A stretch of DNA of 64,000 nucleotides. Source: Desulfovibrio sp. 86. GTDB lineage: Bacteria; Desulfobacterota; Desulfovibrionia; Desulfovibrionales; Desulfovibrionaceae. Below, in pieces: positions 35,101 through 53,322 of the stretch. Under the pieces are notes generated by a model. That model worked only from the letters and a program-made list of their open reading frames with translations, had not been told where the DNA came from and ran no database searches. Location of the stretch: contig NZ_LR738849.1 of NCBI RefSeq assembly GCF_902702915.1, positions 2,239,001 to 2,303,000 of the forward strand, in the 5' to 3' direction. A program made the position numbers and the translations under genes. Numbering within the stretch: the first letter of the stretch is position 1; every line of letters begins with the position of its first letter.

Positions 35101-37278
35101 CTGTTCAAGCTTGTGCGCGCCCATGCGCAGCTCGGCGCATTCCACGTGCAGGGTAAGGTCAGGAGCGGCCAAAGGCCCGGCGGCGGTGAGGCGCAGGGTG
35201 GCAGGAGCGGCCAGCATGTCCAGCGGATCCGCGCTTTCTTCGGTCGCGGCGGTCTGGCTAGTGGTGTGGCCCGTGGTCTGGCCCGTAGTCTGGACAGTAG
35301 CCTGAGCGGGGGCCTGTGCGGCGGCCTGTGTACCAGCCTGGCGGGCAGCCGGGGCGGCAGCTTGCGTGGCGGTTGTGGACGCGTTTCTGGAGGGAGCGAT
35401 GCTGACCTGCAAGTCCACATCCAGGGGGCCTGAAAGCCACGAGGATTTCTGCGGGGAAGTTTTTTGCGACAGTGAGGCTTGTGACGGTGTGGCTTGCGCG
35501 GGTATGGCCTGCGGGCTTGCGGCCTGCGGGGTTGCGGTCTGTGCAGGGGCTGTGTGTGGTGACGCGGCCTGTGAAGATGGCGCTTGCGGGGTTGGGGGTT
35601 GCGCAGGAGCCGTCGATGGAGTTGCGCCTTGTGCAGGTGTCGCCAACGGGGATGCGGCCTGAGGCACAGCGGCCTTGGCAGGCGCGGCGGGCGCGCTTTG
35701 CCAGAAGGCATGCCCTGCCGTGGACAGCGGGCCAGCCTGAATGGAAAATTTGTTCAGGCCCACACGAGCGACAGTGGCCATGGCCTCCGGCGAGCCCGGA
35801 GCGCCGGGTTTTGCGGGGGCTTCCACTTCCGCGCCCAAGGCCAGCGAAATGCGGGCGCCGCCGCCGAGCAGGGTTGCCAGAGGGCCGGAGGCGGCTTTTG
35901 TTGCGGAGGTCTTGTCCATGCCCTGCGCGGCAACAGCAGCGGGTGCGGCAGCGGCGGTTGTGGTGGCTGCGCCAGAAGTGGCAGCGGTGGTTGTGCCGGA
36001 AGCAGCCGTGGCTGTGGCGGCGGGCGTGGCGGAGGGTGTTGCCTGACCAGCCTGTGCGTCCGCCGTCCCGGTGGACGGGTCTGCATGGGCGGCCCCGGCA
36101 TTTCCGACTGGCAGCACCGTGGCTTCAAGCGTGCTGTCCACGGTCAGCGCCAGGGCCGAGGGCGTGACTGTTCCCGATTGGCGCGGGGCGAAATTCACTT
36201 CAAGACTGGCCTCAAGGCCGCTGCTGGGCACGCCGGGCAGGGGCAGGGGGGCACTGTTTGCGCCATGGGCAGTCAGCAGGGCCGTGAGGTTGCCCCCCGC
36301 GCTTCCGGCCCTGAGGCTGGCTTCAACCGTGGCCAGAAAATAGCTGTCTGCGAGCAGGTTGGCAGCGGGCAAATTGTCATCGGCCAAATTGGCAGTTGGT
36401 AGAGCCGCAGTGGGCGACGCTTCACCCTTGGCCACATCAGGAGTACCGGCGGTCGGGGCATTGGCCGGAACATCGGGTTTGGCGTCTGGTTTGGCGTCTG
36501 CGCCGGAGCCTGTTGCGGCATCGGCCTTGGCATCAGCCTTGGTATGGGCTGGCGGCAGCGCGCCAAGCAGGCTGGCAGGAAGCTGCGCGTCCACAACGGC
36601 CACCCTGTCCAGAAGCACATCGGGCAGCCAGCCCGGCAATGAGCTGATGGCGCGTACCGTTTCGCCGAGCGCTTCGCGCAGCGACGCTTCCGTGAGCGGC
36701 GGCGAAGGCGGTTCAGGGAGCGAGGCGGGCAGGTCGGGCAAACGCAGGAGGCGCGGCGTTTTGCTGGTCAGTTCGGCAATGTGCACACGGCCCGGCAGGG
36801 CGGTCCAGTCCCAGATAAAGGTGTTTTGCGGCGCTTCAAGCCACAGGCCGTGGGCGTCGGCCAGTTCCACACCCATTTGCGCCGTGAAAGGCAGAGCGCC
36901 CGAAAGGTGCGTCAGACGGATATGCAGGCCGCTTTTTTCCGCTGAGGCGGCCAGAACGGCATTGACCTCGTCCTTGATCCATGCCTGGACGTTTTCATTG
37001 CGCAGGGCCAGCAGCACGCCAGTCAGAAAGAACAGCAGCAAAAGCAGCACAAAGGCCAGCCCGCGCCAGAGTACAGACCAGATGCGGGCAGCCGCGCCCC
37101 GGTTTTTATGGCTTTTGCCAGGCCCCTGTGGCGTGCCCGGCCCCGCCTCGGCCGCGCCAGATGCCGCCGCGCCAGAACCAACTGCGCCAGAACCAACTGC
37201 GGCAGCCGATCCGGCTCCGGTTCTGGAGCCGTCCGCCGTGGCGTCAGTCTGCGCGGGATGTGTGGATGCGCTCGTCAT
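32143..37278 (-). CDS. tamB: TamB-like translocation and assembly module protein, 1711 residues
   Basis: Inner-membrane-anchored AsmA/TamB-family protein that bridges the periplasm to an Omp85 partner and is linked to outer-membrane protein insertion or lipid transport. It has a Gly/Ala-rich N terminus, one anchor (about 71-91, RGLAFVLLLLLFFLTGVLL) and a long beta-rich body. The C-terminal TamB domain (about 1350-1711) contains GEAGVTGSAAAPQVTGKIVV, VSGTPEDPQITGQITAIKG and FGKSTNELGRLENLRLAGAVA. Several Ala/Pro/Gln/Thr-rich stretches (about 246-295, 400-455, 528-612, 630-685, 752-800, 895-960) interrupt the body and enlarge it. ATG 37278 overlaps the tamA stop (ATGA), and the TAG stop matches a family 2 end. 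The shared operon supports the TamA-TamB pairing. Confidence 0.88.
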   Translation of the reverse strand: MTSASTHPAQTDATADGSRTGAGSAAAVGSGAVGSGAAASGAAEAGPGTPQGPGKSHKNRGAAARIWSVLWRGLAFVLLLLLFFLTGVLLALRNENVQAWIKDEVNAVLAASAEKSGLHIRLTHLSGALPFTAQMGVELADAHGLWLEAPQNTFIWDWTALPGRVHIAELTSKTPRLLRLPDLPASLPEPPSPPLTEASLREALGETVRAISSLPGWLPDVLLDRVAVVDAQLPASLLGALPPAHTKADAKADAATGSGADAKPDAKPDVPANAPTAGTPDVAKGEASPTAALPTANLADDNLPAANLLADSYFLATVEASLRAGSAGGNLTALLTAHGANSAPLPLPGVPSSGLEASLEVNFAPRQSGTVTPSALALTVDSTLEATVLPVGNAGAAHADPSTGTADAQAGQATPSATPAATATAASGTTTAATSGAATTTAAAAPAAVAAQGMDKTSATKAASGPLATLLGGGARISLALGAEVEAPAKPGAPGSPEAMATVARVGLNKFSIQAGPLSTAGHAFWQSAPAAPAKAAVPQAASPLATPAQGATPSTAPAQPPTPQAPSSQAASPHTAPAQTATPQAASPQAIPAQATPSQASLSQKTSPQKSSWLSGPLDVDLQVSIAPSRNASTTATQAAAPAARQAGTQAAAQAPAQATVQTTGQTTGHTTSQTAATEESADPLDMLAAPATLRLTAAGPLAAPDLTLHVECAELRMGAHKLEQAVVHLGAAPLNWQEALMVVQDHEQDPAAPNAVPTAPATASPKAPDAAPHNDAVPNKAAAQDADAAPPQAAPAQRPRLTLQLDVSGRWDGQPLSLESQIFAGRSEEDMLQAGLRNLRLNALGITAAGQVTASLPPGSMPACDGKLDVRVADWAALSTLVPGARLDGEAALSLELRADRVAVTTTGSNTASPNDQNGHGAAAQAAQASQAAQTGKTAQNAQAAQTAQASQAGNENPPAASGGSAAPASATAAPAQRYSQKAELRFNVPRLSYSAGADAPLVLRNLAGELTLKDAFGPGSLTARIDLGTVHQGDLSLGVKARANGALSGPLDASIETSGTVAAHVNARWQPGLVQVQRLEAHISGRDLGFRATPGASLRYGDDGLDLKGLDIRLVPGGRLRAQASLAQDKMDVRLDLEGLALTPWKKFVPALPEGTVEAQARLTGSPSQPGGSFRLGVRQLRIPGSPLKPLNVGLTGRIEASGGSSGSLVARLDMDKESVEALGGSEARLEVRLPLLFGKDGLPQPNMQGPLRGQVRWKGAAGPLWSLLPIADQRFAGNVAVNADLGGTLAAPSAKGAVLVDKGKYENLVQGVLLTNITMRLNLEEGRGGSSGKKQGGLPGVARLELDASGGLGGKLRVAGFANLDGSRLDIKTTIDHLRPLSRRDIRIELSGEAGVTGSAAAPQVTGKIVVNQGLILLNKLAVGGSVTTLPITEAPNPSQVAQQTSGSEKPVAPGKPVAQGNLNLNIVIPGRFFVEGHGLTSEWKADLLVSGTPEDPQITGQITAIKGTFDFLTKIFKLSRGNITFAGGSLSNPLLDISLSNETPNLTSFVNISGTVRKMKLTLSSEPEMPRDEILAQILFGKSTNELGRLENLRLAGAVAQLAGFGSGGDGIFDLTRKALGVDVLRLNSTPNSASGGKSEDEGMGAGTSVEMGKYITDIIYLGIQQGMKQGSTAFVIQLEITPRTSLELRSEQQNTWGGIRWKYNY

Positions 37279-39335
37279 CAGAAGGACTGCCCTATGCTCA
37301 CGTAGATTTGTATGGGAGGATCACCCTCCCTTGGTCGCAAAGGTGTGGCCACGTCCAGCCGCAGCGGCCCGATGGGCGTGAAATAGCGCAGGCCAATGCC
37401 CGCGCCCCAATCCATGTCGCCCAGGATGCGGGGCACTTCGTCCCTGTAGACCATGCCGCCGTCCAGAAAGGGAACAATGCCCACATCATCGGTAATCTTG
37501 TAACGCGCCTCAAGGCTGATTTCCTGAAAGGATCGTCCGCCAAGGGGATCGCCGTTTTTGTCCTCCGGCCCTACGGACTGATAGGGGTAGCCGCGCACCG
37601 ACCCCGCGCCGCCAGCGTAGTAGCGCAGGCTGCCGGGAATGTTGCGCAGGGCCGCGCCGGACATGGCCCCGGCCTCAACCCGGCCCGCCAGGATCAGCTT
37701 GTCGTCGGGCCGCCCGTCTTTGTGGAAGGGCGCGTAGTAGCCGCTGGCTTCCAGCGAACCGGCCATGACCGTAAAGCTTTCGCCGTAGAAACCTGTGGAG
37801 GGGTTGGCCTTGACGATGATTTCAGAGCCGCGCGTGGGATTGAGGATATTGTTGCGGCTGTCGCGCCGCACGCTGGCCTTGGGGCCAATATAGCCGTAAA
37901 ACTGTTCGGACTTGTCGTTTTCCTTGATGGAGCCGCTCTGGCCCCCGGCCCCGAGGCTGGCCCACCAGAAACGCGAGACGCGCCGCTCCAGCGCGGCGGA
38001 GGCGCTGCCTGCCGTGCTTTTGTACGCCTCTGTATTCTCACGCAAGGCCGAGGCGGAGGCCAGCAGACGCTGCTCACGCACAAGAAAGGCGGGTTTTTCA
38101 AATGCCGCCTTGATGCCTTGAACCTGTGTGGCGATGGGGGCGCTGACCACCAGCTTTTCCCCATTGTCGAAAAGATTGCGGTGTTCCCAGAAGCCTTCCA
38201 CGCCAAGGCCCGTATCCGTGTCATACCGGGCGCTGCCGCCCACGGAACGGAAGGGCAGTTCGGCCACGGTCACTTCCAGGGGCAGCACGGGCACGCCGTC
38301 CTTGCTCCTGGTGGGTGCGCCGTTGGCAGCGGACGCGTTCTTGGCCAGCAATTCTTCCTGCGGGCGTATGTCCACGGAGCGGAAAAGCCCCAGCCCGCGC
38401 AGGTTGTTGGCGTAGTCGTCCACCAGTTCGGCGTCCCACGGTTCCTCGCCGGGAACCCAGAGGGCGAGCCTTTGCAGGTAGGTGGCGTTGACGCCCGCAT
38501 TGCCCTTCACGTCAATGCGGCCCATGAGGGCGGGCGGGCCGGGATCAAGGGTGATGTCGGCGTTGACCTGGCGTTTTTCGGGGTCAAGCGTATAGCGCGA
38601 CTGGGTCACTGACGCCAGGGGGTAGCCCTGGGTACGCAGTTTTTCCGGCAAATCTTCAACGGCGCTCAACAGGGCGTCGGCCACCACGGGTTTGCCCACG
38701 GCGACCCCCGGCAGGGTTGCCGGAAAGGACGGCGGCGGCAGGGTTTTGGTTTCCAGACCCCAAAAGCCCACTTCACGCTCGCGGGTCTTGAAATAGCCGG
38801 GCACGTCGGGCGGCGGATCGTAGGTCACGTTGGCGCGGCCCAGCGTATAGCGCGGCCCGGCCGTAAGAGTGAGGGTCACGCGCACGGGCTTTGTCTCTTC
38901 GTCCAGACTGAAGGCCGCCGTGCCTTCATAATAACATTGGGAGTGCAGAAGTTTGACGGCTGTTTCCACATCGGCGCGGGCGCGGCGTTCCAGGGCCAGC
39001 ATGCTGTCGGGCGGCTCCTTGGCAAGCTGCTCCAGCTGGCTCACGGACTTCATCTTGCCTTCAAGGGAGGAGGGCCCGTCCTTGACCTTGATGCGCAGGG
39101 TATAGGGCACAGGATCCCCACGCCATGCGGCTTCAAGGGATTCCTGCTCTTTTTGCTCGTGGGGATCCTCGGTCTTTGCCGACAGCAGGCCGCAGCCGGA
39201 AAGCTGCAGCAAGAACAGCAGCGCGCAAAGCGCGCGTAGCGGTGCAAGCCGGGGGCCTACGTATTTGCCGGGGGAGCTTTGGGCATGGAGGGGCCGTGCG
39301 GGCCGCAGGGGTTTTATGCTGAATACACTGCACAT
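37278..39335 (-). CDS. tamA: TamA/Omp85-family outer-membrane protein with apparent lipoprotein signal
   Basis: A 685-residue BamA/TamA-type protein with N-terminal POTRA-like repeats (about 60-330; for example VRVTLTLTAGPRYTLGRANV and IDVKGNAGVNATYLQRLALW) and a C-terminal 16-strand barrel (about 350-685). The barrel contains LAGRVEAGAM, YYAGGAGSVRGYPYQSVGP (the VRGY-type loop motif) and ends IQIYVSIGQSF with terminal Phe. The signal sequence is odd: after a long 33-residue lead, LCALLFLLQLSGCG carries a lipobox with Cys48, which would anchor the POTRA region by lipid. No better start is visible; ATG 39335 has a poor ribosome site. The stop overlaps the tamB start, so both are translated together. 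Confidence 0.87.
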   Translation of the reverse strand: MCSVFSIKPLRPARPLHAQSSPGKYVGPRLAPLRALCALLFLLQLSGCGLLSAKTEDPHEQKEQESLEAAWRGDPVPYTLRIKVKDGPSSLEGKMKSVSQLEQLAKEPPDSMLALERRARADVETAVKLLHSQCYYEGTAAFSLDEETKPVRVTLTLTAGPRYTLGRANVTYDPPPDVPGYFKTREREVGFWGLETKTLPPPSFPATLPGVAVGKPVVADALLSAVEDLPEKLRTQGYPLASVTQSRYTLDPEKRQVNADITLDPGPPALMGRIDVKGNAGVNATYLQRLALWVPGEEPWDAELVDDYANNLRGLGLFRSVDIRPQEELLAKNASAANGAPTRSKDGVPVLPLEVTVAELPFRSVGGSARYDTDTGLGVEGFWEHRNLFDNGEKLVVSAPIATQVQGIKAAFEKPAFLVREQRLLASASALRENTEAYKSTAGSASAALERRVSRFWWASLGAGGQSGSIKENDKSEQFYGYIGPKASVRRDSRNNILNPTRGSEIIVKANPSTGFYGESFTVMAGSLEASGYYAPFHKDGRPDDKLILAGRVEAGAMSGAALRNIPGSLRYYAGGAGSVRGYPYQSVGPEDKNGDPLGGRSFQEISLEARYKITDDVGIVPFLDGGMVYRDEVPRILGDMDWGAGIGLRYFTPIGPLRLDVATPLRPREGDPPIQIYVSIGQSF

Positions 39336-39546
39336 ACGTAACTATACGCTGTATGGTTTTTCTTAGCAAGAAACATTCGCATATTGTATGCTTTTTATGA
39401 GCAATATTGATTAGCTACGGTGACTTCTTCTCCATACGCCGCTTGGCAAAAGGTCTACCCCCTGCTACTACTTGTGTTGCAGGCGGCGCTGTGCGAGCGC
39501 GCCGTCGCCACCTGTGTTTCGGCTGCAATTTTACTGGAGAATGGAT

Positions 39547-39894
39547 ATGAACTACGATCTCTGCCTGCACATAGACAGCAAGGAGCCAGCCATTCTGAAG
39601 CTGGTTCTGATGAACGCGGCCAATTACATCAAGGCCTTGCCCAACGAACGCTATCAACTTGTGGTGGTGGCCAACGGCCCTTCCGCAGTCCAGTTCCACA
39701 AGAGCAATGAAGAGTTCCGCGCCATGGCCGCGCCCTTGCAGGAACAGGGGGTGCGCATCCGGGTTTGCGCCAATGCCCTGGCCAACAGCAATATGACGCC
39801 CGAAGACCTCTGGCCCGGCTGCGAAGTCGTGCCTGCCGGTCTGGTTGAAATAGTGCGTTTGCAGCGTGAGGGCTTTGCCTACATCAAACCCTAG
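39547..39894 (+). CDS. DsrE-family-like small protein
   Basis: A 115-residue soluble protein with the flavodoxin-like DsrE/YchN fold pattern: beta strand YDLCLHIDS, helix EPAILKLVLMNAANYIKAL, strand YQLVVVANGPSAVQF, helix NEEFRAMAAPLQEQGVRIRVC and ending VPAGLVEIVRLQREGFAYIKP. Cysteine at RVCANAL occupies the place where active sulfur-carrier relatives have their conserved Cys. Sulfur transfer is possible but not shown; many such proteins have unknown roles. GGAG seven bases ahead favours ATG 39547 over ATG 39541. Monocistronic; a family 1 element begins 11 bases after the stop. Confidence 0.75.
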   Translation: MNYDLCLHIDSKEPAILKLVLMNAANYIKALPNERYQLVVVANGPSAVQFHKSNEEFRAMAAPLQEQGVRIRVCANALANSNMTPEDLWPGCEVVPAGLVEIVRLQREGFAYIKP

Positions 39895-40305: not shown

Positions 40306-41136
40306 ATGAGATTCTTTGCGGATATTCTGGATACCGTGCGGCGGCGCGGGCCTGTGGTGCACTGCATTACAAACTACGTCACCGTGAACGACTGCGCCAA
40401 CATGATTCTTGCCGCTGGCGGGTCGCCCATAATGGCCGACGACATTGCCGAAGTGGAAGATGTGGTGGCTCTGGCGCAGGCTCTGGTCATCAATATAGGC
40501 ACGCTCAACAGCCGCACGGTTGAGGCCATGCTTGTGGCGGGCCAGCGCGCCAACAGCCTGGGGCGGCCGGTGGTGCTTGATCCCGTGGGCGCGGGCGCTA
40601 CGGCCCTGCGTAACAGTGCCTTGCAAAGTCTGTTGCGCGAAGTGCGCTTTGCGGCCATCAAGGGCAATATTTCAGAGATAGGCTTTCTGGCCGGCGAGGA
40701 CGCCAGGGCCAGAGGCGTGGACGCCGAGGACGCCTCCCTTGTGACCGAGGGCAGCCTCAAGGCCGCCTCCGACATGGCCCGGCGGCTGAGCGACAGCACG
40801 GGAGCCGTGGTGGTGATCAGCGGAGCCATAGATATTGTGGCCCACGCCCAGGGGGTATGGACGGTGCGCAACGGGCATCCGCTCATGGCGCGCATCACGG
40901 GTTCGGGCTGCATGTCGGCGGCCGTCGTCGGCTGCTGCCTTGGGGCTGCGCCCGACGAAGGGGCCCAGGCATGCCTGTGCGCCGTAAGCAGCATGGGCGT
41001 GGCAGGGGAAATCGCCGCTGAAAATATGGTTGGCGCGGGGGGCGGCACGGGCAGCTACCGCGCCCTGCTGATTGACGCCATGAGCATGCTTGACGGCCCG
41101 ACGCTCACCTGCCGCGCCGACGTGAAAAACGGGTAG
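40306..41136 (+). CDS. thiM: Hydroxyethylthiazole kinase
   Basis: Phosphorylates 4-methyl-5-(2-hydroxyethyl)thiazole in the thiamine salvage pathway. The 276-residue protein shows the family features: VHCITNYVTVNDCANMILAAGGSPIMADD near the N terminus, VVLDPVGAGATALRN, IKGNISEIGFLAG and the anion-hole segment ITGSGCMSAAVVGC, all in the usual order of the ribokinase-like fold. GGAAGGAGAAGTGC precedes ATG 40306. thiE or thiD is not adjacent, so salvage genes are not clustered here. The leader carries a weak resemblance to a TPP riboswitch that I do not accept as proven. A terminator follows at 41358. Confidence 0.94.
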   Translation: MRFFADILDTVRRRGPVVHCITNYVTVNDCANMILAAGGSPIMADDIAEVEDVVALAQALVINIGTLNSRTVEAMLVAGQRANSLGRPVVLDPVGAGATALRNSALQSLLREVRFAAIKGNISEIGFLAGEDARARGVDAEDASLVTEGSLKAASDMARRLSDSTGAVVVISGAIDIVAHAQGVWTVRNGHPLMARITGSGCMSAAVVGCCLGAAPDEGAQACLCAVSSMGVAGEIAAENMVGAGGGTGSYRALLIDAMSMLDGPTLTCRADVKNG

Positions 41137-41552: not shown

Positions 41553-44500
41553 CTATGCCCACAGGACGAGGCCCGTTTCAAGCGGCGAGGCCAGGTCTTT
41601 ATGGAAGGGCATGATGCGAACGCCATAGCGGTACTGCCCGCTTTGCGTCGGTATGTAGGTGGCCGCATAGGTTTTGCCGCCGTTGCCATTGTCCGAGGTG
41701 CGGGATTCAAGCCGCAGGATTTCGGGTTTGTCAATGAAGTTGCCGTCAATGAGCGCGCGGCCGATGACAAGCTGGGCCAGGATTTCTTCGGGCTGCATTT
41801 CGCCTATGTCGATATGCAGGCGAACGCTCACAGGCTCGCCGCAGATCATTGTATTGTTCTCCACGCCGCTGATGAGCATCTCCTCCACCTTGACGGTACC
41901 GAAACGGGCGGGCAGGTCTTTTGCCCATGCGGCAAGCTGGCGGCAGGCGGCCCAGTCGTTTTCGGCCAGCATGTTGCGACGGCGCGCCGCCCGCAGGTAG
42001 TACTGGCGGATGTAGTCGTTGAGCATGCGATTGCTGCTGTACATGGCGGTAAGGCTTTTGAGCGAGCGCTTGCCCATGGCTATCCACTGTGCGGGAAGGC
42101 CGTTCTGGTTGCGTTCAAAGTACAGGGGCAGCACGGCATTTTCCAGCAGGCCGTACAGCGATTCTGCGTCGATGTAGTCGTTCTGCTCGCTGCTGGGCAG
42201 TTCATTGGTGACCACGGGGCCGATGGTCCAGCCGTTTTGCCTGTTGTAGCCCTCGCACCACCAGCCGTCGGAGATGCTCAGGTTCACGCCGCCGTTGACG
42301 GGCAGTTTCATGCCGCTGGTGCCCGAAGCCTCGTGGGGGCGGCGGGGCGTGTTGAGCCAGACGTCGCAGCCCTGCGACATGAGCCGCGACACGGCCAGAC
42401 TGTAGTTTTCGAGAAAGAAGATGCGCCCCAGAAAGCGTTTGTCCTGGCACATGCGCATGACTTCCTGAATGAGGTTTATGCCCGCCTCATCCGCGGGATG
42501 CGCCTTGCCGGAAAAGACCAGCACCACAGGGCGGTCGGGATTGTTGAGAATGCGCGCCAGGCGGTCGGGATCGGCAAAGAGCAGGGTGGCGCGCTTGTAG
42601 GGCGCAAACCGTCGGGCAAAGCCGATAATGAGCGTTTCGGGCTTGAGCAGGGCCTCCATGTCCTTGCGGGTGGCGGGGTCCAGCTTGAAGCGCTGGGCAA
42701 AGACGGGAACCCGCTTGCGCAGGGCGTCGAGCAGGGCTTCTTTCTGGTTCTGGCGGGCAGCCCAGAAGGCTTCGTCGGGGATTCCGTCCACCTTGTCCCA
42801 TGTATCAGCGCCGGGCTGGGACTGCATCCAGCCGGAGCCAAGGTGCTTGAACAGCAGTTCGTGCATCCAGCTGCCCACGTAGGAGGGGGTATGCACGCCG
42901 TTGGTGACGTGGCCTATGGGCGTTTCGGCCGTGGGCAGGCCCTTCCACAACTTGTTCCACATGTGGCGGGAAACGATGCCGTGCAGGCGGCTGACGCCGT
43001 TGGCCCAGCAGGAAAGGCGCAGGGCCAGCACGGTCATTTCAAAGGACTGGCTGTCGCCGCCCTCGATCTGTCCCAGTTTGATGAACTGCTGCCACGAAAG
43101 GTTGAGGCTTTGCGCCATGCCGGTGAAATAGCGGCCCATAAGTTCGAGAGAGAAGGATTCGTTGCCCGCCGATACGGGCGTATGGGTGGTGAAGAGCGTG
43201 TTGGAGCGCACGCGCGTAATGGCTTCGTCATAGTCCATGCCCTGGGTCATGCAGTCGCGTACCCTTTCAAGAGCCATGAAGGCCGAATGCCCTTCATTCA
43301 TGTGATACACGCTGGGGATGATGTCCAGGGTGCGCAGAAGGCGCATGCCGCCCTGGCCCAGCAGGATTTCCTGCAGCAGCCGGGTTTCGCGGTTGGCTTC
43401 GTAGAGGCGGTCCGTGATGCGGCGGTCTTCATCGGTGTTGCGGGGGGTGTCCGTATCCATAAGGAAGAGCGTCACCCGGCCCACCTGCAAGCGCCACACG
43501 CGGGCAAAGAGGATGCGCCCCGGCAGTTCAAGCTGCACATAGATGTCTTCGCCAAAGGCGTCCTGCATCTGCTTTATGGGCATCTGGGCAAAGTTGTTGA
43601 CGGGGTACTGGGCCACCTGACGGCCGTTGGAGTCGATCTCCTGCATGAAGTAGCCGCTCTTGTAGAGCAGGCCGATGCCCATCAGCGGCAGGGCCATGTC
43701 CGAGGCGGATTTGAGATGGTCGCCGGAAAGTACGCCAAGGCCGCCGGAATAGATGGGTATGGACTCGTTGAGCCCGTATTCCGTGGAAAAGTAGACAATG
43801 GGGTTTTCGGGCGTCACGTCCTGACTGAGGGAGCGGATGGGTTCGGCCATATAGGCGTCAAAACTCTCCATCACCTTGTGGTACATGTCCATGTACTCTT
43901 CGTTGGCCATGAGCTCCTTGAAGCGGGCGGGCCATGCTTCTTCAAGCATTCTCAGCGGATTGCGGCAGGCTTCCCACAACTGGGGGTTCAGGGCCATGAA
44001 CAGGGCCTTGGCGTAGTCGTGCCAGCACCACCAGACGTTCTGGGCAAGCTCGCGCAGGCGTGCAAGCTCGCGGGGCACTTCGGCCACGGCCATGATGGGG
44101 CGCAGAAAGGGTGTGGCCGAGCAGGAGGCCGTGAGCACCCGCGTCAGCGCGCCGTGCCCTGCATCGTGATCGGCGCGGGTTTCGGATTTTGTGAGAGCTA
44201 TGCTAAATGCTTTCAAATAGTTATCGAAAAAATAACTCCAGGATGTTTTTTCGGCCAGGGCGCGGGCGTGGCCGCGCCAGGAGTGCATGTCCTCGACAGC
44301 GCAGGTGGAGGCAACAAGGATTTTTTCGTGCAGCACTTTGGCGCTCTGCTCAAAGTTCATGCCGCGCCGGGGCATGACGTACACGCCCCTGTGATCCATG
44401 CCCGCTTCCTTCATCTTTTCCCTGGCCCACATGCCGAAGCCCGAAAGGTCGGTGGTGAGCGTGGGCACGGCCCAGGCCGCGCTTTCCTGCGGCGTATAGC

Positions 44501-45809
44501 CCCATGGCTCGTACCAGGAGGGGAAGAAGCCCACATCGCAGGCGGCCAGTATTTCCTCGTAGGGCATGTTCAAAAAGCCGTCATGCCCGTCAAGCATGGC
44601 GGGCACAAAGATGACCTTGATGCGTCGCTCCGGCCTGTTGTTGAGTCCGAGGCGGCGGCAGGCGTTGATAATGGGGTCCTGCGGGGCGTTCCACACATAA
44701 TGGGTGCAGATGAAGGGCTGGCCGTTGTCCGTTTCAGCCGGGTCGCCGGACACGGCCGCCGGGTTGACGCCCGTGTGGCCGCCCATGACCATGCAGAGAA
44801 CCAGAACGGAGGCCTCAGTGCCGGACAGGTTGCGGTCGGCCTGGGCCAGGGCGTCCAAAAAGATGTCCACGCCCTTGTTGTGCATCTCATAGCGGCCTGA
44901 AATGATGAAGATACGGGTGTGATCCGGCAGGGGGCCGCGCAAAAAGCGCCCTGCGGCTTCCATTATCTTTGCCCGCGAGGCCGAAGGCACGATGCGGTCT
45001 TCGGAATAGTCGGGTATGACGCGCAGATCCAGACCGTTGGTGGTGATGACGTCGGGCTGGCGGCCCAGAAAGACCGTGGATTCCTCGCCGGTGATGGGGC
45101 TCACGGTGGTAAAGGCGTCGGCCTCGCGCGCGGCGGTGCTCTCCATGGACCATTTGGCCGTGATGTTCAGCGCCGCCGCCTCGTTGGCCGGATTGATGTT
45201 GCGCATGTTGCTGTAGATGTCGCGGCCGGTGGCGGCCAGGGCACGGCCCAGCATGGTGGCGTGGGTGGTAAAGACCGTGCCCACCCCCGGCGCGAGCTTT
45301 TTGACCATGAGCAGGCCTGCGGCGCACATCCATTCGTGAAAAAGGGCCACGCTGTGCCCCTGCATGGGCTCCACACGGCTTTCGTGCACGGCGGCGATGA
45401 CCTCACCGCAGGCAGCGGCGAACATGACGGGCTCAATATAGTCCCAGCCGCCGGAGAGGGAGTCCACGCCGTAGTTTTTCCACATTTCAAAAAGCAGCTG
45501 GTTGCTGGCGTAGCGCTTGTCGAACTCCACCAGTATGACCTTGGGGCGTCCGGGTATGTTCCAGCGGCCCAGGCGGCATTTGAGGTCACGGGTGGCAAGA
45601 CCTATGCGCAGGGAGTCCCAGGCGTGTTCGTCGGTTTCTTCAAAGCCGGGATTCTGCTTCAGGGCCGGGCCCAGAAGAAAGTAGTCTTCGCCGAAGTGTT
45701 CAACGGCCTGAAGGGCCTTGCTGGTGACGACGGAGTGAATGCCGCCCACCTTGTTGCAGACTTCCCAGCTCACTTCAAACAGGGTTACCGGGGAGGAATT
45801 GAAGTCCAT
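41553..45809 (-). CDS. GT3 glycogen synthase fused to GT35 alpha-glucan phosphorylase
   Basis: A 1418-residue fusion of opposing activities. Residues 1-545 resemble eukaryotic-type GT3 glycogen synthase: FEVSWEVCNKVGGIHSVVTSKA at the sugar-nucleotide site and the E-x7-E motif at E434/E442 (YEPWGYTPQE). Residues about 575-690 match DUF3417, the N domain of short alpha-glucan phosphorylases (LARLRELAQNVWWCWHDY). About 690-1290 is GT35, with STEYGLNESIPIYSGGLGVL and the PLP-lysine motif SGTSGMKLPVNGG. About 120 C-terminal residues form a beta-rich domain. Start ATG 45809 has AAGGAG upstream. It is the last gene of the glycogen cluster; 241 bases with a 10-bp inverted repeat (45980-45989 and 46015-46024) separate it from the GH57 gene. 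Synthase donor and phosphorylase direction are inferred. Confidence 0.88.
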   Translation of the reverse strand: MDFNSSPVTLFEVSWEVCNKVGGIHSVVTSKALQAVEHFGEDYFLLGPALKQNPGFEETDEHAWDSLRIGLATRDLKCRLGRWNIPGRPKVILVEFDKRYASNQLLFEMWKNYGVDSLSGGWDYIEPVMFAAACGEVIAAVHESRVEPMQGHSVALFHEWMCAAGLLMVKKLAPGVGTVFTTHATMLGRALAATGRDIYSNMRNINPANEAAALNITAKWSMESTAAREADAFTTVSPITGEESTVFLGRQPDVITTNGLDLRVIPDYSEDRIVPSASRAKIMEAAGRFLRGPLPDHTRIFIISGRYEMHNKGVDIFLDALAQADRNLSGTEASVLVLCMVMGGHTGVNPAAVSGDPAETDNGQPFICTHYVWNAPQDPIINACRRLGLNNRPERRIKVIFVPAMLDGHDGFLNMPYEEILAACDVGFFPSWYEPWGYTPQESAAWAVPTLTTDLSGFGMWAREKMKEAGMDHRGVYVMPRRGMNFEQSAKVLHEKILVASTCAVEDMHSWRGHARALAEKTSWSYFFDNYLKAFSIALTKSETRADHDAGHGALTRVLTASCSATPFLRPIMAVAEVPRELARLRELAQNVWWCWHDYAKALFMALNPQLWEACRNPLRMLEEAWPARFKELMANEEYMDMYHKVMESFDAYMAEPIRSLSQDVTPENPIVYFSTEYGLNESIPIYSGGLGVLSGDHLKSASDMALPLMGIGLLYKSGYFMQEIDSNGRQVAQYPVNNFAQMPIKQMQDAFGEDIYVQLELPGRILFARVWRLQVGRVTLFLMDTDTPRNTDEDRRITDRLYEANRETRLLQEILLGQGGMRLLRTLDIIPSVYHMNEGHSAFMALERVRDCMTQGMDYDEAITRVRSNTLFTTHTPVSAGNESFSLELMGRYFTGMAQSLNLSWQQFIKLGQIEGGDSQSFEMTVLALRLSCWANGVSRLHGIVSRHMWNKLWKGLPTAETPIGHVTNGVHTPSYVGSWMHELLFKHLGSGWMQSQPGADTWDKVDGIPDEAFWAARQNQKEALLDALRKRVPVFAQRFKLDPATRKDMEALLKPETLIIGFARRFAPYKRATLLFADPDRLARILNNPDRPVVLVFSGKAHPADEAGINLIQEVMRMCQDKRFLGRIFFLENYSLAVSRLMSQGCDVWLNTPRRPHEASGTSGMKLPVNGGVNLSISDGWWCEGYNRQNGWTIGPVVTNELPSSEQNDYIDAESLYGLLENAVLPLYFERNQNGLPAQWIAMGKRSLKSLTAMYSSNRMLNDYIRQYYLRAARRRNMLAENDWAACRQLAAWAKDLPARFGTVKVEEMLISGVENNTMICGEPVSVRLHIDIGEMQPEEILAQLVIGRALIDGNFIDKPEILRLESRTSDNGNGGKTYAATYIPTQSGQYRYGVRIMPFHKDLASPLETGLVLWA

Positions 45810-46050
45810 GTCATCTCCTTGCTCAAGATATCAGTAAGGGGCGCACCTAGTGGCCCCTTCGTGTCGGGGTATCCGTTTTCAGGGCAGTTTCACTGGCCAT
45901 GGGCCGTCCGCAAGACTTTGCGTCGCCCGTCGGCAGCCGCGTGAACGCGCTCTGGCGGCGGGGTATGCGGGCGCTTGCCGTGAAGGCGCACACGCGGGAC
46001 ATCCGCGCGGAGTCGCGCCTTCACGGGCGTGCCGTGGCCTTTGTGTGTTC

Positions 46051-47502
46051 TCAAGGCCGATCCGCTCCTGCGGGCGAAGCGGCGGGCTTTTTTTCTTTTG
46101 TGGTGGCCCCGGCCTTGGCGGCGGCTTTTTTCTTGGCTGGCTCCGCCTTTTTGGCGGGCGCTGCTTTTGTGCCCGTCACTGTTTTTTTGCCGGGCGTTTT
46201 TTTCGCAGTTTTGGGCTGCGCCCCGGGGCTTTGGCCTGCAGGGCTTTTTGCCGGAGCAGCCTTTGTCGGATCAGCCTTGGCCGGGTCAGCCTTGGCCGGG
46301 TCGGGAACCTTTGGCTGTTCCTCAACAACCTTGAGGCGCATTTCAAAGTCCGCCAGCACGTTCATGAAGGTGATGTAGGCGTCATAGGGACTGCCAAAGG
46401 GACTTGGCCTGTCCGGGGCCTCGCTGGAAAACCACTTGGTGGACATATGGCGGAAGTGGTCGGCGGTCTGTAACCTGTCGAAATCATGGCGCAGTTCGGC
46501 CGATCCGCAACGATCCGCCTGTGGGGCCAGGGCGTAGAGGGCGTGTATGGCGTCTTTTTGCATGTCGTTGCCAAGCCACGCGGTGAGGTCGCCGCTCTCG
46601 TCCTCCCAGGATATGAACTGGGGGATGTCCATCTTGCCCACAGGCTTGAATTGTTTGACCGCCACGGCGGGCGTGGCAAAGTAAAAGTCTTTGCGGGCCA
46701 GCAGAGCCTCCGGCAGGGCTTCCAAAAAGTCAAAAATGCCCGACTCCTTGCTGTGGCGCAGGCCGAACACGTGATAATCGTTGATAATATTGATGACATC
46801 AGCCGAGTCGGCCAATCCGTGGCACCAGGAGGCAAAGGCGTCGGCCGTGAGGGGCCATGCGGGCCAGGCAGTGTCGGAAAAGCGCAGGCCGATGTCGTTG
46901 GAAAGGCTGGTGTTGCGCAACAGCAGGCCAAGGCCGGGGGCGCTGACGGGCTGGTACAGGTAGTTGGCGCTGCGCCAGCCCAGCACCTGATCCGTGCCCT
47001 CGGCCAGCACGGCCTTAAAGCCGAGTTCGGCCACAGCTGCGGCGAGGTCGTTGTTGTACACGCATTCCGTATGCTTGAAGGTCACGGGCTTGACGCCGAA
47101 GAGCTTTTTCAGGCGGGCCGTCTGCGCCTGCACCTGGCGGTCAAACTCCTGGCGGGAATAGAGAAAGGCCAGGGAATGCGGCGCGGTCTCGGCCACAAAT
47201 TCCACGCAGCCTGTTTGCGCCAGGGCCGTAAAGCTTTCAAGCACTTCAGGAACGTACTGCTCAAAGAGGTCAAGGGCAGTGCCCGAAATGGCGTAGGAAA
47301 CGTGAAATGCCTTGCCGTAACGGCGGATGAGCTTGAGCATGAGCTCATTGGCGGGCAGGTAGCACAGGCGTGCCGCGCGCAGCATGGCGTCGCAGTTGTG
47401 GTCATCGTCTTCATAAATGGAATTCTGACCCATATCAAAAACCGTATAGCGGCGTAGCTGATAAGGTTCGTGAACCTCATAGCACAGGCATATGGCTGTC
47501 AT
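46051..47502 (-). CDS. GH57 family alpha-amylase-like enzyme with basic Ala/Lys/Pro tail
   Basis: A 483-residue protein of glycoside hydrolase family 57, probably acting on glycogen-derived alpha-glucan. The nucleophile region FKHTECVYNNDLAAAVAELG matches the TELIYNND motif of GH57 amylases (Glu conserved), and NDYHVFGLRH aligns with the MDYETFGEH acid-base motif, with Asp kept. The start ATG 47502 overlaps the preceding gene's stop (ATGA) and has CGGAGG upstream. The last about 88 residues repeat DPAKA, APAKK and KKAA units like a histone H1 tail; this tail is not a normal part of GH57 and may bind polyanions. It is cytoplasmic: no signal peptide is visible. Confidence 0.82.
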   Translation of the reverse strand: MTAICLCYEVHEPYQLRRYTVFDMGQNSIYEDDDHNCDAMLRAARLCYLPANELMLKLIRRYGKAFHVSYAISGTALDLFEQYVPEVLESFTALAQTGCVEFVAETAPHSLAFLYSRQEFDRQVQAQTARLKKLFGVKPVTFKHTECVYNNDLAAAVAELGFKAVLAEGTDQVLGWRSANYLYQPVSAPGLGLLLRNTSLSNDIGLRFSDTAWPAWPLTADAFASWCHGLADSADVINIINDYHVFGLRHSKESGIFDFLEALPEALLARKDFYFATPAVAVKQFKPVGKMDIPQFISWEDESGDLTAWLGNDMQKDAIHALYALAPQADRCGSAELRHDFDRLQTADHFRHMSTKWFSSEAPDRPSPFGSPYDAYITFMNVLADFEMRLKVVEEQPKVPDPAKADPAKADPTKAAPAKSPAGQSPGAQPKTAKKTPGKKTVTGTKAAPAKKAEPAKKKAAAKAGATTKEKKPAASPAGADRP

Positions 47503-48857
47503 GAGCGACCTCCGTGTACGTTGTGGTAAATGGCCAGCAACTGGTCGGCGGCATTTTCCCAACGGATGGACTTCATTTCTTCGCGGCAGTTTTTCACCAG
47601 TTCAGCCGCCAGGCAGGGATAGCGCAAGACGGCGCAGATTTTGTCGGCCATGTCGCGGGTATCCCAAAAATCGGCTTTAAGGGCGTGATCCAGCACTTCG
47701 GATACGCCCGATTGACGTGAGAGCAGCACAGGAACGTCGTAGAGCATGGCCTCAAGGGGCGTTATGCCGAAGGGTTCGGAAACCGACGGCATGACGTAGA
47801 GATCGCTGAGGGCAAACATGCGGTCCACCTCCTCCCCCTGCAGGAAGCCAGCGAAGTGAAAGCGGCTGCCCATGCGCAACTGGCCGGCCCTGCGGATGAG
47901 ACGTGGCAGCATGTCGCCGCTGCCAGCCATGAAAAAACGCACGTTGGGGATTTTTTGCAGCACCAGCCGTGCGGCCTCCATGAAATATTCCGGCCCCTTC
48001 TGAAAGGTGACGCGGCCCAGAAACAGCACGCGCTTTTCGTGCCGTATGCGCGGCGGGATGGGATAATGGCGCTGGGCCTCGTGACGGGCCACGGCGTTGT
48101 GCACGACCATCACCTTTTCCGGGGGGATGCCGTAGCGTTCGATGACGGTTTTGCGGGTGAGGCGGCTCACGGCCACCACCACATCGGCGGCCAGCATGCC
48201 CGCCCGTTCAATGCCCGCCACCTGTTCGTTGATGTCGCATCCGCTGCGGTCGTATTCGGTGGCGTGAATGTGGACCACAAGGGGTTTGCCCGTGAGGGTT
48301 TTGGCCAGCATGCCCGCTGGATAGGTCATCCAGTCATGGGCGTGGATGACGTCGAAGTCTTCCTGGACGGCCAGGGCTGCGGAAAGGCGGCTGTACCGCA
48401 GCACCTCGTCCATAAGGCTGGGGCCGTATCCGCCTTGCAGCGTATAGGTAAAGGATCGGGATTGACGGGACTCTTCTTCTCCCGCCGGGTGCTGCATCAG
48501 GCGATACGGTTCTCCCGCGCAGGTGCGGCCGCTGAGGCGGCCCAGCGCGCCGACGTAGTCCTGCGGGGTGAGATAGGGCATGAGCGGGCTGTCCACTGGC
48601 AGGCAGCGTATGCCGTTGCGCCAGACTTCCTGTTGCGCCCAGTCCATGCGCTGTACCAGGTCTTCAGTGATGGGAGTTCCGGATGCCGAACGCAGACGCA
48701 GAAATTCCCCTTTCCCCTTGCTGTCGTCGATACGGGGCAGTACAAAGATTATTTCCGCTCCCCTGCGGGCCAGGGCCTGGGTCATGCCAAAGCAGGCTGT
48801 GCCCAGACCTCCGCTGATGTGAGGTGGGAACTCCCAGCCGAACATAAGCACTCGCAT
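47499..48857 (-). CDS. GT4-family glycogen synthase-like glycosyltransferase
   Basis: A 452-residue retaining glycosyltransferase, probably elongating alpha-1,4-glucan or a related polysaccharide. The N terminus MRVLMFGWEFPPHISGGLGT has the KxGGL-type loop (here SGGLG), followed by DFDVIHAHDWMTYPAG, the C-terminal GT-B domain LFLGRVTFQKGPEYFMEAA, and the E-x7-E motif SEPFGITPLEAM. GAGGGAGAACAC before ATG 48857 selects this start. The stop overlaps the GH57 start by four bases. It resembles members described as glycogen synthases in sulfate reducers; donor specificity is not readable. Confidence 0.85.
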   Translation of the reverse strand: MRVLMFGWEFPPHISGGLGTACFGMTQALARRGAEIIFVLPRIDDSKGKGEFLRLRSASGTPITEDLVQRMDWAQQEVWRNGIRCLPVDSPLMPYLTPQDYVGALGRLSGRTCAGEPYRLMQHPAGEEESRQSRSFTYTLQGGYGPSLMDEVLRYSRLSAALAVQEDFDVIHAHDWMTYPAGMLAKTLTGKPLVVHIHATEYDRSGCDINEQVAGIERAGMLAADVVVAVSRLTRKTVIERYGIPPEKVMVVHNAVARHEAQRHYPIPPRIRHEKRVLFLGRVTFQKGPEYFMEAARLVLQKIPNVRFFMAGSGDMLPRLIRRAGQLRMGSRFHFAGFLQGEEVDRMFALSDLYVMPSVSEPFGITPLEAMLYDVPVLLSRQSGVSEVLDHALKADFWDTRDMADKICAVLRYPCLAAELVKNCREEMKSIRWENAADQLLAIYHNVHGGRS

Positions 48858-49016
48858 GTGTTCTCCCTCATGCGGCGGGGATTCTCCCGCCGGATTCAGC
48901 GGCCGTTCCTGTGGGCCGCCACAACTCTTCCCCCGCTCCTGTTCGAACATTCTTTTTGCTATTCGTGCCTGGCGGCGAAGCAGTATGGCCGCGCAGGCAT
49001 GGTTTGCTGGCTTTTT

Positions 49017-51155
49017 TTACGGTTGTGCTGCGTCCGGCGCGCACGGATGCTGTTTCTTGCAGCCTTCCAGTGTCATGCTCACGCGGCAGACTCCCGCCGT
49101 ATCGCCAATGACGGGGTGGGCCATGCGGTGCGCCGCCAGTTTTTGCCAGCGCTCGTAGACTGCGGGAGCGGCTTTTTGCAACCGCAGCAAAAGGCGCAGG
49201 CATTCGGCCACACTCCAGGCCTGGGCGATGCAGCCATTGGGTTTGTACGGGGGCGAGCCGTCAAACACTTCAGAAATGCTGCCAAGGCCCGCCTGGGAAA
49301 TATGGTCGCAGTAAAGTGGCGTGAGCGTGTCCAGAAGCGCCATGGCCGCGCCGTCCACATCCCAGGCCGTGCGCAGCAGGGCGTCCGCGTAGTGCCCCAG
49401 CAGCCAGGGCCAGACCGTGCCCTGGTGATAGGCCGCGTCCCGGCTGGCCGGGCCGCCGTCGTACCGTCCCCTGTAGTGCGGGTCGTCCGGGGCCAGGGTG
49501 CGCAGACCGTAAGGCGTGAGCAGTTTGTTGCGCACGCATTCCACCACCTGGGCCTGATAGTCTTCAGACAGCACGGGATGGGGCAGGGAAACCGCGAAAA
49601 TCTGGTTGGGCCGCACACTGACGTCGAGCTTGCCGTTCTGCCAGACGTCGCCAAGGTAGCCCCCGCCGCCGTATACCCAGAAGCGTTGGAAAAATGCCGT
49701 GCGCATGCGGCGCAGGACCATGTCCCCCGCCAGGGGCTCCTCGCCAAAACGCGCGGCGAGCTGGTCCGCAAAGGCCAGGGTGTTGTACCAGAGGGCATTG
49801 ATTTCAACCGGGCAGCCCTGCCGGGGCGTCACGGGGGCGTTGTCGGCCTGCGCGTCCATCCAGGTGAGCTGGCTGTGGGCGTTGCCTGCGTGCAGCAGGC
49901 CCTCGGCGTCCACATGGATGTCCAGCTGTCTGGCCCTGCCCTGGCCCGCACGGTAGCCGGAAATGACAGCCTTGAGCGCGGGCCAGGCATTTTCACGCAC
50001 CCAGGCGAGATGCCCGGCGTCCACCTCAAGGCAGCTTTGCAGCGCAAAGGCGTACCACAGGGCGGCGTCCACGGAGTTGTAGGCGTGGTCGCCCTGGGGC
50101 GAAAACATGTTGGGGATGAGCCCGTCCTCGACATGCCTGCCCATTTCGGCCAGAACGCGCAGGCCAAAATCCGTACGGCCAGCATGAAAGGTCAAGCCCG
50201 GCAGGCTGATGAGGGTGTCGCGGCCCCAGGCGTCAAACCAGTGGTAGCCCGCCAGCACCTCGGGCCGTCCCGAAGGGGATTCGATGCAGAACTGGCGTCC
50301 GACCTGGGCCAGATGCCCGGTGAGTCCGAAGCGGGCCTTGTGGGCCTTGGTGCGTTCACGGCTGGAATCATCCCACATCTGGCGCAGATCCTGCCCGCAG
50401 GGGTGGGTTCCCACCGCCAGGTAGACGCAGCTTTCCGCGCCTTCGGCAAGGGGGGGCATGCCCACGTCCAGCACGCCCGGCGTAAAGAGGTCTTCGCTGT
50501 AGGGAAAGCCGCGTTCACGCTCTTCAAGGTATTCCACATTGCGGCACCAGTCCGGGCGTGGCGTGAAAGAATGCTTCTGGTTTGTCTGGCACTGGATGTA
50601 GAGCGTGGGCAGCCCTTCATAGGGGGTGATGCTGAAGCCGTCGGACAGTGGGGTGGTTTCTGCGCGCAGGTCAGGATTGGCGTGGGTAAGCTTGTGAAAA
50701 TTGCGGTAGGCCAGCAGGGGGCGCAGGCGTAGTGTCAGTGGCGGTACGGGAGTGGGTCCGCGCACGCTGAAGCGCATCAAGAGCAGGCTTTCCCCACGGA
50801 CAAGCAGGATTTCACGGCACAGGCGCACGTCGCCGACGCGGTAGACGCACTGTGGCCACTGATCCAGGCGGAATGCCTCAAGATAGTCGTGGCCGTGAGG
50901 GTAGAGCGTGCCGGGGTGCTGGCGTGTGGAAAGCGTGAATTCCTTGCCGCCGCCCATGATGGATTCTTCAAGGGCGGAGAGCAGCACATGGCGGCCATAG
51001 GGCGTATTGACCGTGAGCAGGCCGTGGTATTTCCGCGTATTGCAGCAAAGGATGGTGCTGCTGGCGTAATCGCCAAGGCCATTGGTGAGCAGCCATTCCT
51101 TGCGCAACGCCCTGCGGGTGTTCTGGCAGGCAGCCTTGTCAAAGCTGAACCGCAT
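49017..51155 (-). CDS. Amylo-alpha-1,6-glucosidase (glycogen debranching enzyme)
   Basis: Hydrolyses alpha-1,6 branch points of glycogen. The 712-residue protein begins with the typical glycogen-debranching N domain (EWLLTNGLGDYASSTILCCNTRKYHGLL). The GH133-type (alpha/alpha)6 catalytic domain follows, with GYHWFDAWGRDTLISLPGL, NSVDAALWYAFALQ and TVWPWLLGHYADALLR; acidic residues of the WFxxWGRDT segment are conserved. GGAGG five bases before ATG 51155 fixes the start. It is first in the cluster of four minus-strand glycogen genes; the next gene starts 160 bases later. The promoter lies in the gap shared with the divergent liv operon. Confidence 0.93.
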   Translation of the reverse strand: MRFSFDKAACQNTRRALRKEWLLTNGLGDYASSTILCCNTRKYHGLLTVNTPYGRHVLLSALEESIMGGGKEFTLSTRQHPGTLYPHGHDYLEAFRLDQWPQCVYRVGDVRLCREILLVRGESLLLMRFSVRGPTPVPPLTLRLRPLLAYRNFHKLTHANPDLRAETTPLSDGFSITPYEGLPTLYIQCQTNQKHSFTPRPDWCRNVEYLEERERGFPYSEDLFTPGVLDVGMPPLAEGAESCVYLAVGTHPCGQDLRQMWDDSSRERTKAHKARFGLTGHLAQVGRQFCIESPSGRPEVLAGYHWFDAWGRDTLISLPGLTFHAGRTDFGLRVLAEMGRHVEDGLIPNMFSPQGDHAYNSVDAALWYAFALQSCLEVDAGHLAWVRENAWPALKAVISGYRAGQGRARQLDIHVDAEGLLHAGNAHSQLTWMDAQADNAPVTPRQGCPVEINALWYNTLAFADQLAARFGEEPLAGDMVLRRMRTAFFQRFWVYGGGGYLGDVWQNGKLDVSVRPNQIFAVSLPHPVLSEDYQAQVVECVRNKLLTPYGLRTLAPDDPHYRGRYDGGPASRDAAYHQGTVWPWLLGHYADALLRTAWDVDGAAMALLDTLTPLYCDHISQAGLGSISEVFDGSPPYKPNGCIAQAWSVAECLRLLLRLQKAAPAVYERWQKLAAHRMAHPVIGDTAGVCRVSMTLEGCKKQHPCAPDAAQP

Positions 51156-51518
51156 ACAGCCTCCGGCGGTACGGGTGCTTATGGGAAAGCGCTGCGTGAG
51201 GCGAGTGGGGGGAGGTGAGGTCGCAGCGGGCCTGTATGAGACTGCTGAGGGTGTGGAACCGGGCGGCGGAGAAGGTCGCGTGGTCAGGGCGGAAAGAACA
51301 CTTGCGGCAGCGCTTCGTCGTGCAATGCCTCTGAATCGCCAGCAGCAAGGTTCTGCCCGAAGCACGGTTGCGGCACATGCCGCGCACAGGGCGACTGCAC
51401 CTTTTCCAGCCTCTTTGGACTTTATCGTACCTCATGTTTTTATATCTGTCGAGTTTTACAGCTTTGCGTCAGGATTGCGGCAGAATTTGTACAGGCGGAA
51501 TGGGCAATGCGTGCCCGT
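51156..51518. other. Gene-free divergent region, glycogen-cluster side
   Basis: Expected to hold the promoter of the glycogen cluster. A long reading frame extends here upstream of the debranching gene but lacks a ribosome site. No RNA or regulator site is recognised. Confidence 0.4.
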
Positions 51519-51666
51519 TAGAGCATTTTACCCTTGAAAAAATATAAATGCTCTAACGCTGCGCGGAAGCGCAGCGCGCCACAACGTGGCGCGGATTCAG
51601 CCGAGCTTTAACGGATAAAGCTCGGCTGAATGAAAACGTTGAACCATGAAATATATCAAAGGTAAT
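51519..51666 (+). repeat. Family 2 multi-hairpin element, copy D
   Basis: Hairpins in order: TTAGAGCATTT...AAATGCTCTAA; CGCTGCGC-GGAA-GCGCAGCG; GCGCCAC-AAC-GTGGCGC; ATTCAGCCGAGCTTT-AACGGAT-AAAGCTCGGCTGAAT; then a degenerate last stem. Compared with copies A and B the second stem changes GCAC/GTGC to GCGC/GCGC and the fourth extends with paired changes. It lies in a divergent intergenic region, not behind a gene. Confidence 0.8.
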
Positions 51667-53115: not shown

Positions 53116-53322
53116 ACTGGCCGTACAGTGTGCCCCGCGCCTGCGTTTCAGCGGCGCGAAAACAGTCAATATGTCATCAACGCCCGTGGCGGCGGCCCGG
53201 TTTTTTCCGTGCCGCCGCCCGGATGCGCCAATGGGAGCCGACCCGCGCGGCTCCAGCGGCGGAATTGCGCTCTTGCCGGCGACCTCCCCGGCAACAAGAG
53301 CGTGGCAAGGGTACAACGCTTT

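Follow-up and report, generated by a model that had tools for sequence, protein, structure and literature searches.

A single protein joining glycogen synthase to glycogen phosphorylase, probably a bifunctional chain-end enzyme, in Desulfovibrio sp. 86

We analyzed a 64,000-nucleotide stretch of Desulfovibrio sp. 86 DNA (contig NZ_LR738849.1, positions 2,239,001 to 2,303,000; hereafter, the window) and found that a gene on its minus strand (41553–45809) encodes a protein of 1418 amino acids in which a glycogen synthase of glycosyltransferase family 3 (GT3) is joined to an α-glucan phosphorylase of family GT35. We consider it probable that this fused protein is a bifunctional glycogen chain-end enzyme that carries both opposing steps. 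Both active sites are present and conserved in one chain, each half is the single locus of its family, the gene lies in a cluster, and neither GlgC (ADP-glucose pyrophosphorylase) nor a GT5 synthase was found in the genome. We infer that both activities operate in vivo, with UDP-glucose as the donor and with a benefit from tethering.

The open reading frame (ORF) begins with ATG and contains zero internal stops across its 1418 codons. The sequence AAGGAGATGAC immediately precedes the ATG, and AGGAG at 45815–45819 (minus strand), 5 nt ahead of the start codon, can be read as a good Shine–Dalgarno sequence. The GT3 half comprises residues 1–545 (44175–45809; Pfam, alignments and fold match) and contains H183, R306, K312, E434 and E442. 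After a linker of variable sequence (residues 546–575; 44085–44174; alignment and structure model), the GT35 half occupies residues 576–1418 (41553–44084; Pfam, NCBIfam and alignments) and contains K1168, presumably the pyridoxal phosphate (PLP) lysine. DUF3417 (PF11897), the N-terminal portion of such phosphorylases, was assigned by Pfam to residues 578–684 (43758–44078). Among the Pfam models, Glycogen_syn (PF05693) scored 328.7 bits against a cut-off of 27, in two stretches that cover both Rossmann parts, DUF3417 scored 101.8 bits against a cut-off of 25, and the best stretch of Phosphorylase (PF00343) was 834–1182. The NCBIfam model TIGR02094 ('more_P_ylases', alpha-glucan family phosphorylase) scored 804.4 bits at residues 671–1272, with a cut-off of 191.7. 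No further domain, and no regulatory domain, was reported in the Pfam and NCBIfam scans of the fused protein. The best fold matches were human, worm and yeast glycogen synthases for the N-terminal half and Segatella copri glycogen phosphorylase for the C-terminal half. A sequence-only reading of this locus had proposed that a eukaryotic-type GT3 synthase and a GT35 phosphorylase, serving opposite directions of glycogen metabolism, share one polypeptide; the uninterrupted frame, the two domains above cut-off and the eukaryotic fold matches bear this out.

We then compared the residues of both active sites in an alignment of 74 proteins, consisting of 62 fused proteins and 12 split pairs. Residue roles are those usual for the two families or were taken from alignments with solved glycogen synthases and phosphorylases. 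In the GT3 half, we take E434 and E442 to be the catalytic glutamates of the E-X7-E motif, and H183, K312, R306 and K20 to be donor-binding residues; E434 and E442 align with E510 and E518 of human GYS1, as counted along the alignment. In the GT35 half, the lysine of the GTSGMK motif is K1168, and R1066, K1072 and K1102 are presumably the arginine and lysines of the phosphate site; these four residues align to canonical phosphorylases. Every checked residue was the standard one in the window protein, and twelve were identical in 74 of 74 rows (H183, K312, E434, E442, N970, H973, R1066, R1067, K1072, K1102, E1160 and K1168). The earlier statement that both catalytic motifs (E434/E442 and GTSGMK) are intact is thus supported. 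At the position of the GTSGMK methionine, 44 rows have M, 18 have E, 11 have Q and one has I, so this residue is not essential. The ratio of nonsynonymous to synonymous divergence (dN/dS) between the window gene and its relatives was low in both halves, namely 0.09–0.19 for GT3 and 0.07–0.21 for GT35 in five of six pairs; the remaining pair, with L027, was saturated for synonymous divergence in GT3.

The rest of the glycogen pathway was sought in the genome, a single contig of 3.46 Mb, for which the best-matching named record was Desulfovibrio sp. MES5, at 96% identity over its top segment. Profile searches found the fused gene as the sole PF05693 locus and the sole PF00343 locus, and PF08323 (GT5-type) matched the fused gene and its GT4 neighbour, and nothing else. 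Five NTP_transferase proteins were present, each above its NCBIfam cut-off, namely RmlA, GMP/PMI, GalU, glucose-1-phosphate cytidylyltransferase and GlmU. Neither GlgC nor a GT5 synthase was found in the whole-genome searches, and the classical bacterial GlgC/GT5-GlgA pathway was accordingly not recognized there. Because no GlgC was found and GalU was, UDP-glucose is the likely donor. PF00128 returned one protein, which is most GlgB-like yet below the NCBIfam cut-offs, and neither a GT8 (glycogenin-type) nor a GH77 protein was matched in the genome search. According to the relevant passage of one report, polyglucose accumulates in Desulfovibrio gigas (PMC4287179), and a reserve glucan in the Desulfovibrio group is therefore reasonable.

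The fusion is not confined to this genome. In a survey of 119 genomes of the same family, 102 had a match and, among the matches listed, 24 (the present genome included) carried a complete fused gene, each as a single match; most of the other 78 had a separate phosphorylase of ~37–41% identity, and two (G073 and G030) had fused-type pieces at contig ends. Among 395 genomes of the window's phylum, GT3 matched in 21 and exceeded the cut-off in 19, of which 12 belong to the window's own genus. All 19 matches lay in frames of 1418–1481 amino acids, with the GT35 half confirmed in 14 and assigned by frame length alone in the other five. Among 294 Planctomycetota genomes, 48 were above the cut-off, comprising 14 with a separate classic GT3 and 33 with a shorter type, besides a single match that was weak and partial. 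The shorter type was found in frames of at least 1400 amino acids in 28 of the 33 genomes, two of which (G504 and G505) were seeds, reached because they are fused. We fetched 18 of the 33 loci (the five short frames and 13 others, neither seed among them), and GT3 and GT35 shared one frame in 17; the remaining locus (L139) ends with its contig, and another (L140) is interrupted by in-frame stops. In Bacteroidota (395 genomes), 18 were above the cut-off, including 13 classic separate GT3 genes, four short separate GT3 genes that directly adjoin a separate GT35 gene and one fused seed (G503); the fusion is rare in this phylum. In other words, the fusion is present in three phyla, namely the window's own, Planctomycetota and some Bacteroidota. 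The 24 complete fused genes in the family, together with those in other phyla, exclude an assembly or frameshift artefact or a chance join, and likewise a fusion peculiar to one strain.

We propose the following mechanism. The GT3 half would transfer glucose from UDP-glucose onto non-reducing ends, and the PLP-dependent GT35 half would take glucose off the same kind of ends as glucose-1-phosphate. The two halves would fold separately and be flexibly tethered, both acting on the same glucan, such that the only recognized GT3/GT5 synthase and the only phosphorylase are made at a fixed 1:1 ratio and at a common location. Substrate levels (GalU-made UDP-glucose versus phosphate), together with any regulation that is invisible in sequence, would decide the net direction. 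Branching may be performed by the GlgB-like protein encoded elsewhere, and debranching or trimming by the clustered debranching enzyme (GDE) and GH57 protein. Direct channelling of glucose-1-phosphate between the two sites is unlikely, since GalU has to act on it first to give the synthase a usable substrate.

An AlphaFold2 model was built for residues 1–1200 of 1418 (the last 218 lie outside it) from 32 fused sequences, in a form without inter-domain error output. The mean predicted local distance difference test score (pLDDT) was 82.3, and the predicted template modelling score (pTM) was 0.53. Values of pLDDT below 50 occurred at 548–574, in several short stretches of the GT35 active site and at the cut C-terminal end. 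Most of each half is thus modelled well, the relative placement of the halves is not settled by the model, and the linker of ~30 residues is predicted to be disordered. A flexible tether is more in keeping with this than a rigid channel; because confidence in the linker is low and pTM is 0.53, no fixed channel is indicated.

Several observations weigh against a bifunctional enzyme of this kind. No GT8 glycogenin-type gene was found in the genome, though eukaryotic GT3 enzymes require a primer. Some binding-site residues vary: of the 74 rows, 66 retain K20, 70 retain G23, 72 retain R306 and 69 retain E1134. R306 is altered in L058 and L070, and K20 is proline in L047, L048 and L058; it is arginine in L124 and L126 and falls in a gap in L053–L055, whose frames begin at a contig edge. 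The synthase half may therefore be decaying in some Planctomycetota or in divergent homologues with an altered K20 or R306. Parts of the GT35 active site (961–964, 1069–1073 and 1154–1164) were modelled at pLDDT below 50. A single chain is not essential, as in Bacteroidales the two enzymes are encoded by separate neighbouring genes. Finally, no assay of the fused protein or of a fused homologue came up in the open-licence literature searched. As a separate observation, L047, L048, L058 and L070 are divergent fused homologues, three from Planctomycetota and one from Bacteroidota, in which the checked phosphorylase residues are retained.

Two further possibilities, a reciprocal switch and the handling of maltooligosaccharides, could hold together with the bifunctional reading, and the confidences that we attach to the various readings do not add to one. 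The first is an intramolecular switch, in which a ligand or glucan bound to one half inhibits the other, so that the protein acts either as synthase or as phosphorylase and no futile cycle arises. Directly opposed steps are joined in three phyla with both active sites kept, and antagonistic bifunctional enzymes such as PFK-2/FBPase-2 and Rel/SpoT exist elsewhere. However, the linker is short, variable and predicted to be disordered, pTM is 0.53, and the domain scans reported no further domain. The glucose-6-phosphate site of eukaryotic synthases is likewise poorly preserved. Arg579, Arg582 and Arg586 are among the residues that bind glucose-6-phosphate in human GYS1, according to the section of the source that describes this site (PMC9287172). 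Counted along our alignment, these arginines correspond to V505, M508 and R512 of the window protein, and some other alignment rows hold up to five arginines in this stretch. Because only one of the three GYS1 arginines is retained, the eukaryotic allosteric site is not expected; we rejected eukaryotic glucose-6-phosphate control, and regulation of the window protein by this route seems unlikely. The arginine cluster is a trait of regulated eukaryotic members, not of the whole GT3 family. An RNA-based regulator was also rejected, since Rfam at the gathering score gave zero matches in the window, whether to a riboswitch or to another RNA family. Promoter and terminator scans returned 2 sites against 2.3 expected and 18 against 13.2 expected (standard deviation 4.1), respectively. 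We consequently regard an intramolecular switch as a tentative idea. We hold in similarly low confidence a related proposal, namely a bidirectional machine in which the two sites hand over, or compete for, a glucan end, and the occupancy of each suppresses the other. If true, such a machine would unite in one prokaryotic chain the counterparts of the animal synthase and phosphorylase, which are controlled separately.

The GT35 half might alternatively elongate or trim short glucans to supply primers for the GT3 half, thereby replacing glycogenin. The lack of a GT8 or GH77 match in the genome is compatible with this role, as is the score of 804 bits that the GT35 half obtained on the Thermococcales maltodextrin phosphorylase model of NCBIfam, although this falls below the model's cut-off of 1500. 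However, phosphorylases themselves need a primer, the neighbouring GT4 protein, a relative of maltose-1-phosphate synthase, is an equally good priming candidate, and transfer between the sites has no sign in the sequence. We therefore consider primer handling doubtful, and less probable than a switch.

Two alternatives appear very improbable, the first being that one half is non-enzymatic and serves as a mere glucan-binding anchor or scaffold for the other. The few divergent homologues with an altered K20 or R306 in GT3 make decay in some lineages conceivable, whereas all checked residues of the window protein are standard, twelve are invariant throughout the alignment, dN/dS is low in both halves, and the genome searches returned no second locus of either family. 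The other, which we rate equally low, is that the fusion exists in the gene model only and that two proteins are produced in vivo by internal initiation or proteolysis. A variable linker with predicted disorder and the two separate chains of Bacteroidales would be in keeping with this. However, the sequence upstream of M573 at the junction is CACACCCTTTCTGCGCCCCATC, with no Shine–Dalgarno-like sequence close upstream of that codon and no internal start at the junction with a convincing one; the nearest purine-rich run is AGGG, ~20 nt ahead of V558. In addition, the halves run through in frame in all 62 fused frames of more than 1300 amino acids that we gathered (the window's included). The linker showed dN of 0.000 and 0.016 against dS of 0.28 and 0.48 in the two closest pairs, and dN/dS of 0.10–0.32 in more distant pairs.

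To place the split pairs of Bacteroidales, we compared a GT3 tree of 74 rows with a GT35 tree of 103 rows, limited to matches covering at least 440 (GT3) or 700 (GT35) query residues, from which four near-copies per set were then removed. In both trees, Desulfovibrionaceae and relatives stood apart from Planctomycetota and Bacteroidota, and the Bacteroidales split pairs formed one group within the fused Bacteroidota; single rows were placed differently (L128, and L120 with L129/L131). In the GT3 tree of all 74 rows, the fork that nests the pairs had support of 88/70. Forcing the fused GT3 rows into one clade was rejected in a 27-row subset (approximately unbiased test, p-AU 0.004), the test group having been defined after inspection of the first tree. 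Three classic rows make up the GT3 outgroup; the GT35 tree comes from a quick search, and its root is weak. Of the 29 phosphorylases found alone, 28 are set to the same side by a branch of the GT35 tree with SH-aLRT 98; the exception, L043, begins at the edge of a contig and is probably a truncated fused gene. Because the pairs nest within fused sequences in both trees and a single fused clade is rejected, we dismissed the view that they represent the ancestral unfused state, and fission is the simpler reading for Bacteroidales. One fusion followed by one fission would be the simplest account of these trees, with room for further events given the long branches (L046 and L070), the weak GT35 root and the three GT3 outgroup rows. 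Adjacent separate GT3 and GT35 genes were found at 13 loci (L113–L116, L049–L052, L056, L057, L059, L060 and L069), which are probably fission products of the fused gene. Nine of the 13 have at least 5.5 kb of upstream sequence, and none of these nine has GDE, GT4 and GH57 there.

In the window, three genes lie upstream of the fused gene on the same strand. The first gene of the cluster (49017–51365) encodes an amylo-α-1,6-glucosidase with the Pfam domains GDE_N and GDE_C; judging from homologue lengths, translation probably begins further downstream than the listed GTG. It is followed by a putative GlgM/GlgA-like GT4 glycosyltransferase (47499–48950; Pfam, NCBIfam and solved-chain match) and a GH57 family protein (46051–47562; Pfam), the start of which, from the listed ORFs, is likely to be the ATG at 47502, overlapping the GT4 stop as ATGA. 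The GH57 stop is 241 nt from the fused gene, which closes the cluster. The order debranching enzyme–GT4–GH57–[GT3–GT35] is the usual one; of the 56 fused loci, near-copies included, that have 5.5 kb or more of upstream sequence, 44 had it complete, seven in part and five not at all. The sequence-only reading had counted the GT4 protein as a separate synthase, so that two synthases would coexist. Its GT4 family membership was confirmed, whereas the claim of two synthases is unsupported, as the protein scored 126.9 bits on glgA_Coryne, far under the cut-off of 302.4, and its nearest solved chain is an α-maltose-1-phosphate synthase (6tvp). It could serve in priming, in making maltose-1-phosphate or in elongation, and it is too early either to list it among the synthases or to rule it out. 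In its part on archaeal glycogen metabolism, a published account leaves the function of GT4 open and suggests an uncharacterized synthase for one methanogen (PMC11046441).

Several other features of the window were observed. The GH57 protein has an Ala/Pro/Lys-rich, histone-H1-like tail of ~85 residues outside its Pfam domain (26–314), and its comparison with solved chains gave zero matches at E ≤ 0.001. Divergent from the cluster lies a branched-chain amino-acid type ABC transporter with a periplasmic binding protein and two permeases (51646–55274, plus strand). Downstream of the fused gene, on the opposite strand, are a hydroxyethylthiazole kinase (ThiM-like; 40306–41136, plus strand) and a small DsrE-like protein (39472–39894, plus strand). 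Farther on, a TamB-like protein (1711 amino acids, PF04357) and an Omp85/TamA-like protein form a TAM pair (32143–39335, minus strand), the ORFs sharing one base at 37278.

Synthase and phosphorylase are a textbook pair that cells are thought to regulate in opposite ways. One conserved chain with both sites intact, which is also the sole locus found for each family, raises the question of how the cell avoids a futile cycle. For Desulfovibrio, the results also point to a glycogen pathway that draws on UDP-glucose and dispenses with GlgC. Proteins of ~1400 amino acids that carry the name of a single activity may have to be labelled with the other as well. The individual families and pathway parts are known; no description of a single synthase–phosphorylase chain was found in the literature, for which open-licence papers only were searched, so that this absence is weak evidence. 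In its portions that discuss GT3 and GT35, PMC11046441 mentions neither a fusion of both nor any word beginning with Desulfo-.

Compared with known systems, the GT3 half resembles eukaryotic GT3 enzymes (human GYS1 and yeast Gsy2) in its fold, catalytic glutamates, VGG loop, H183, R306 and K312; unlike them, it has a shorter chain, retains one of the three arginines that bind glucose-6-phosphate and is joined to a phosphorylase. Nearly the whole of the GT35 half aligns with the TIGR02094/DUF3417 phosphorylase of S. copri (PDB 9l6i; structural match, 39–40% identity), and the PLP lysine and phosphate-site residues are shared. The S. copri and Thermococcales GT35 enzymes are separate proteins (PDB chains of 852–872 amino acids and a model of 816 positions), whereas here GT35 is the C-terminal part of 1418 amino acids. 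The GT4-GH57-GH133 cluster of Picrophilus torridus contains the same three neighbour families; in the sections of PMC11046441 that deal with it, no GT3–GT35 fusion is mentioned, whereas in the window the fused gene ends the cluster. The TreS–Mak/Pep2 fusion of the GlgE pathway, as presented in the same sections (PMC11046441), similarly places two glycogen-pathway enzymes in one chain; it joins consecutive steps, whereas the GT3–GT35 fusion joins opposing ones.

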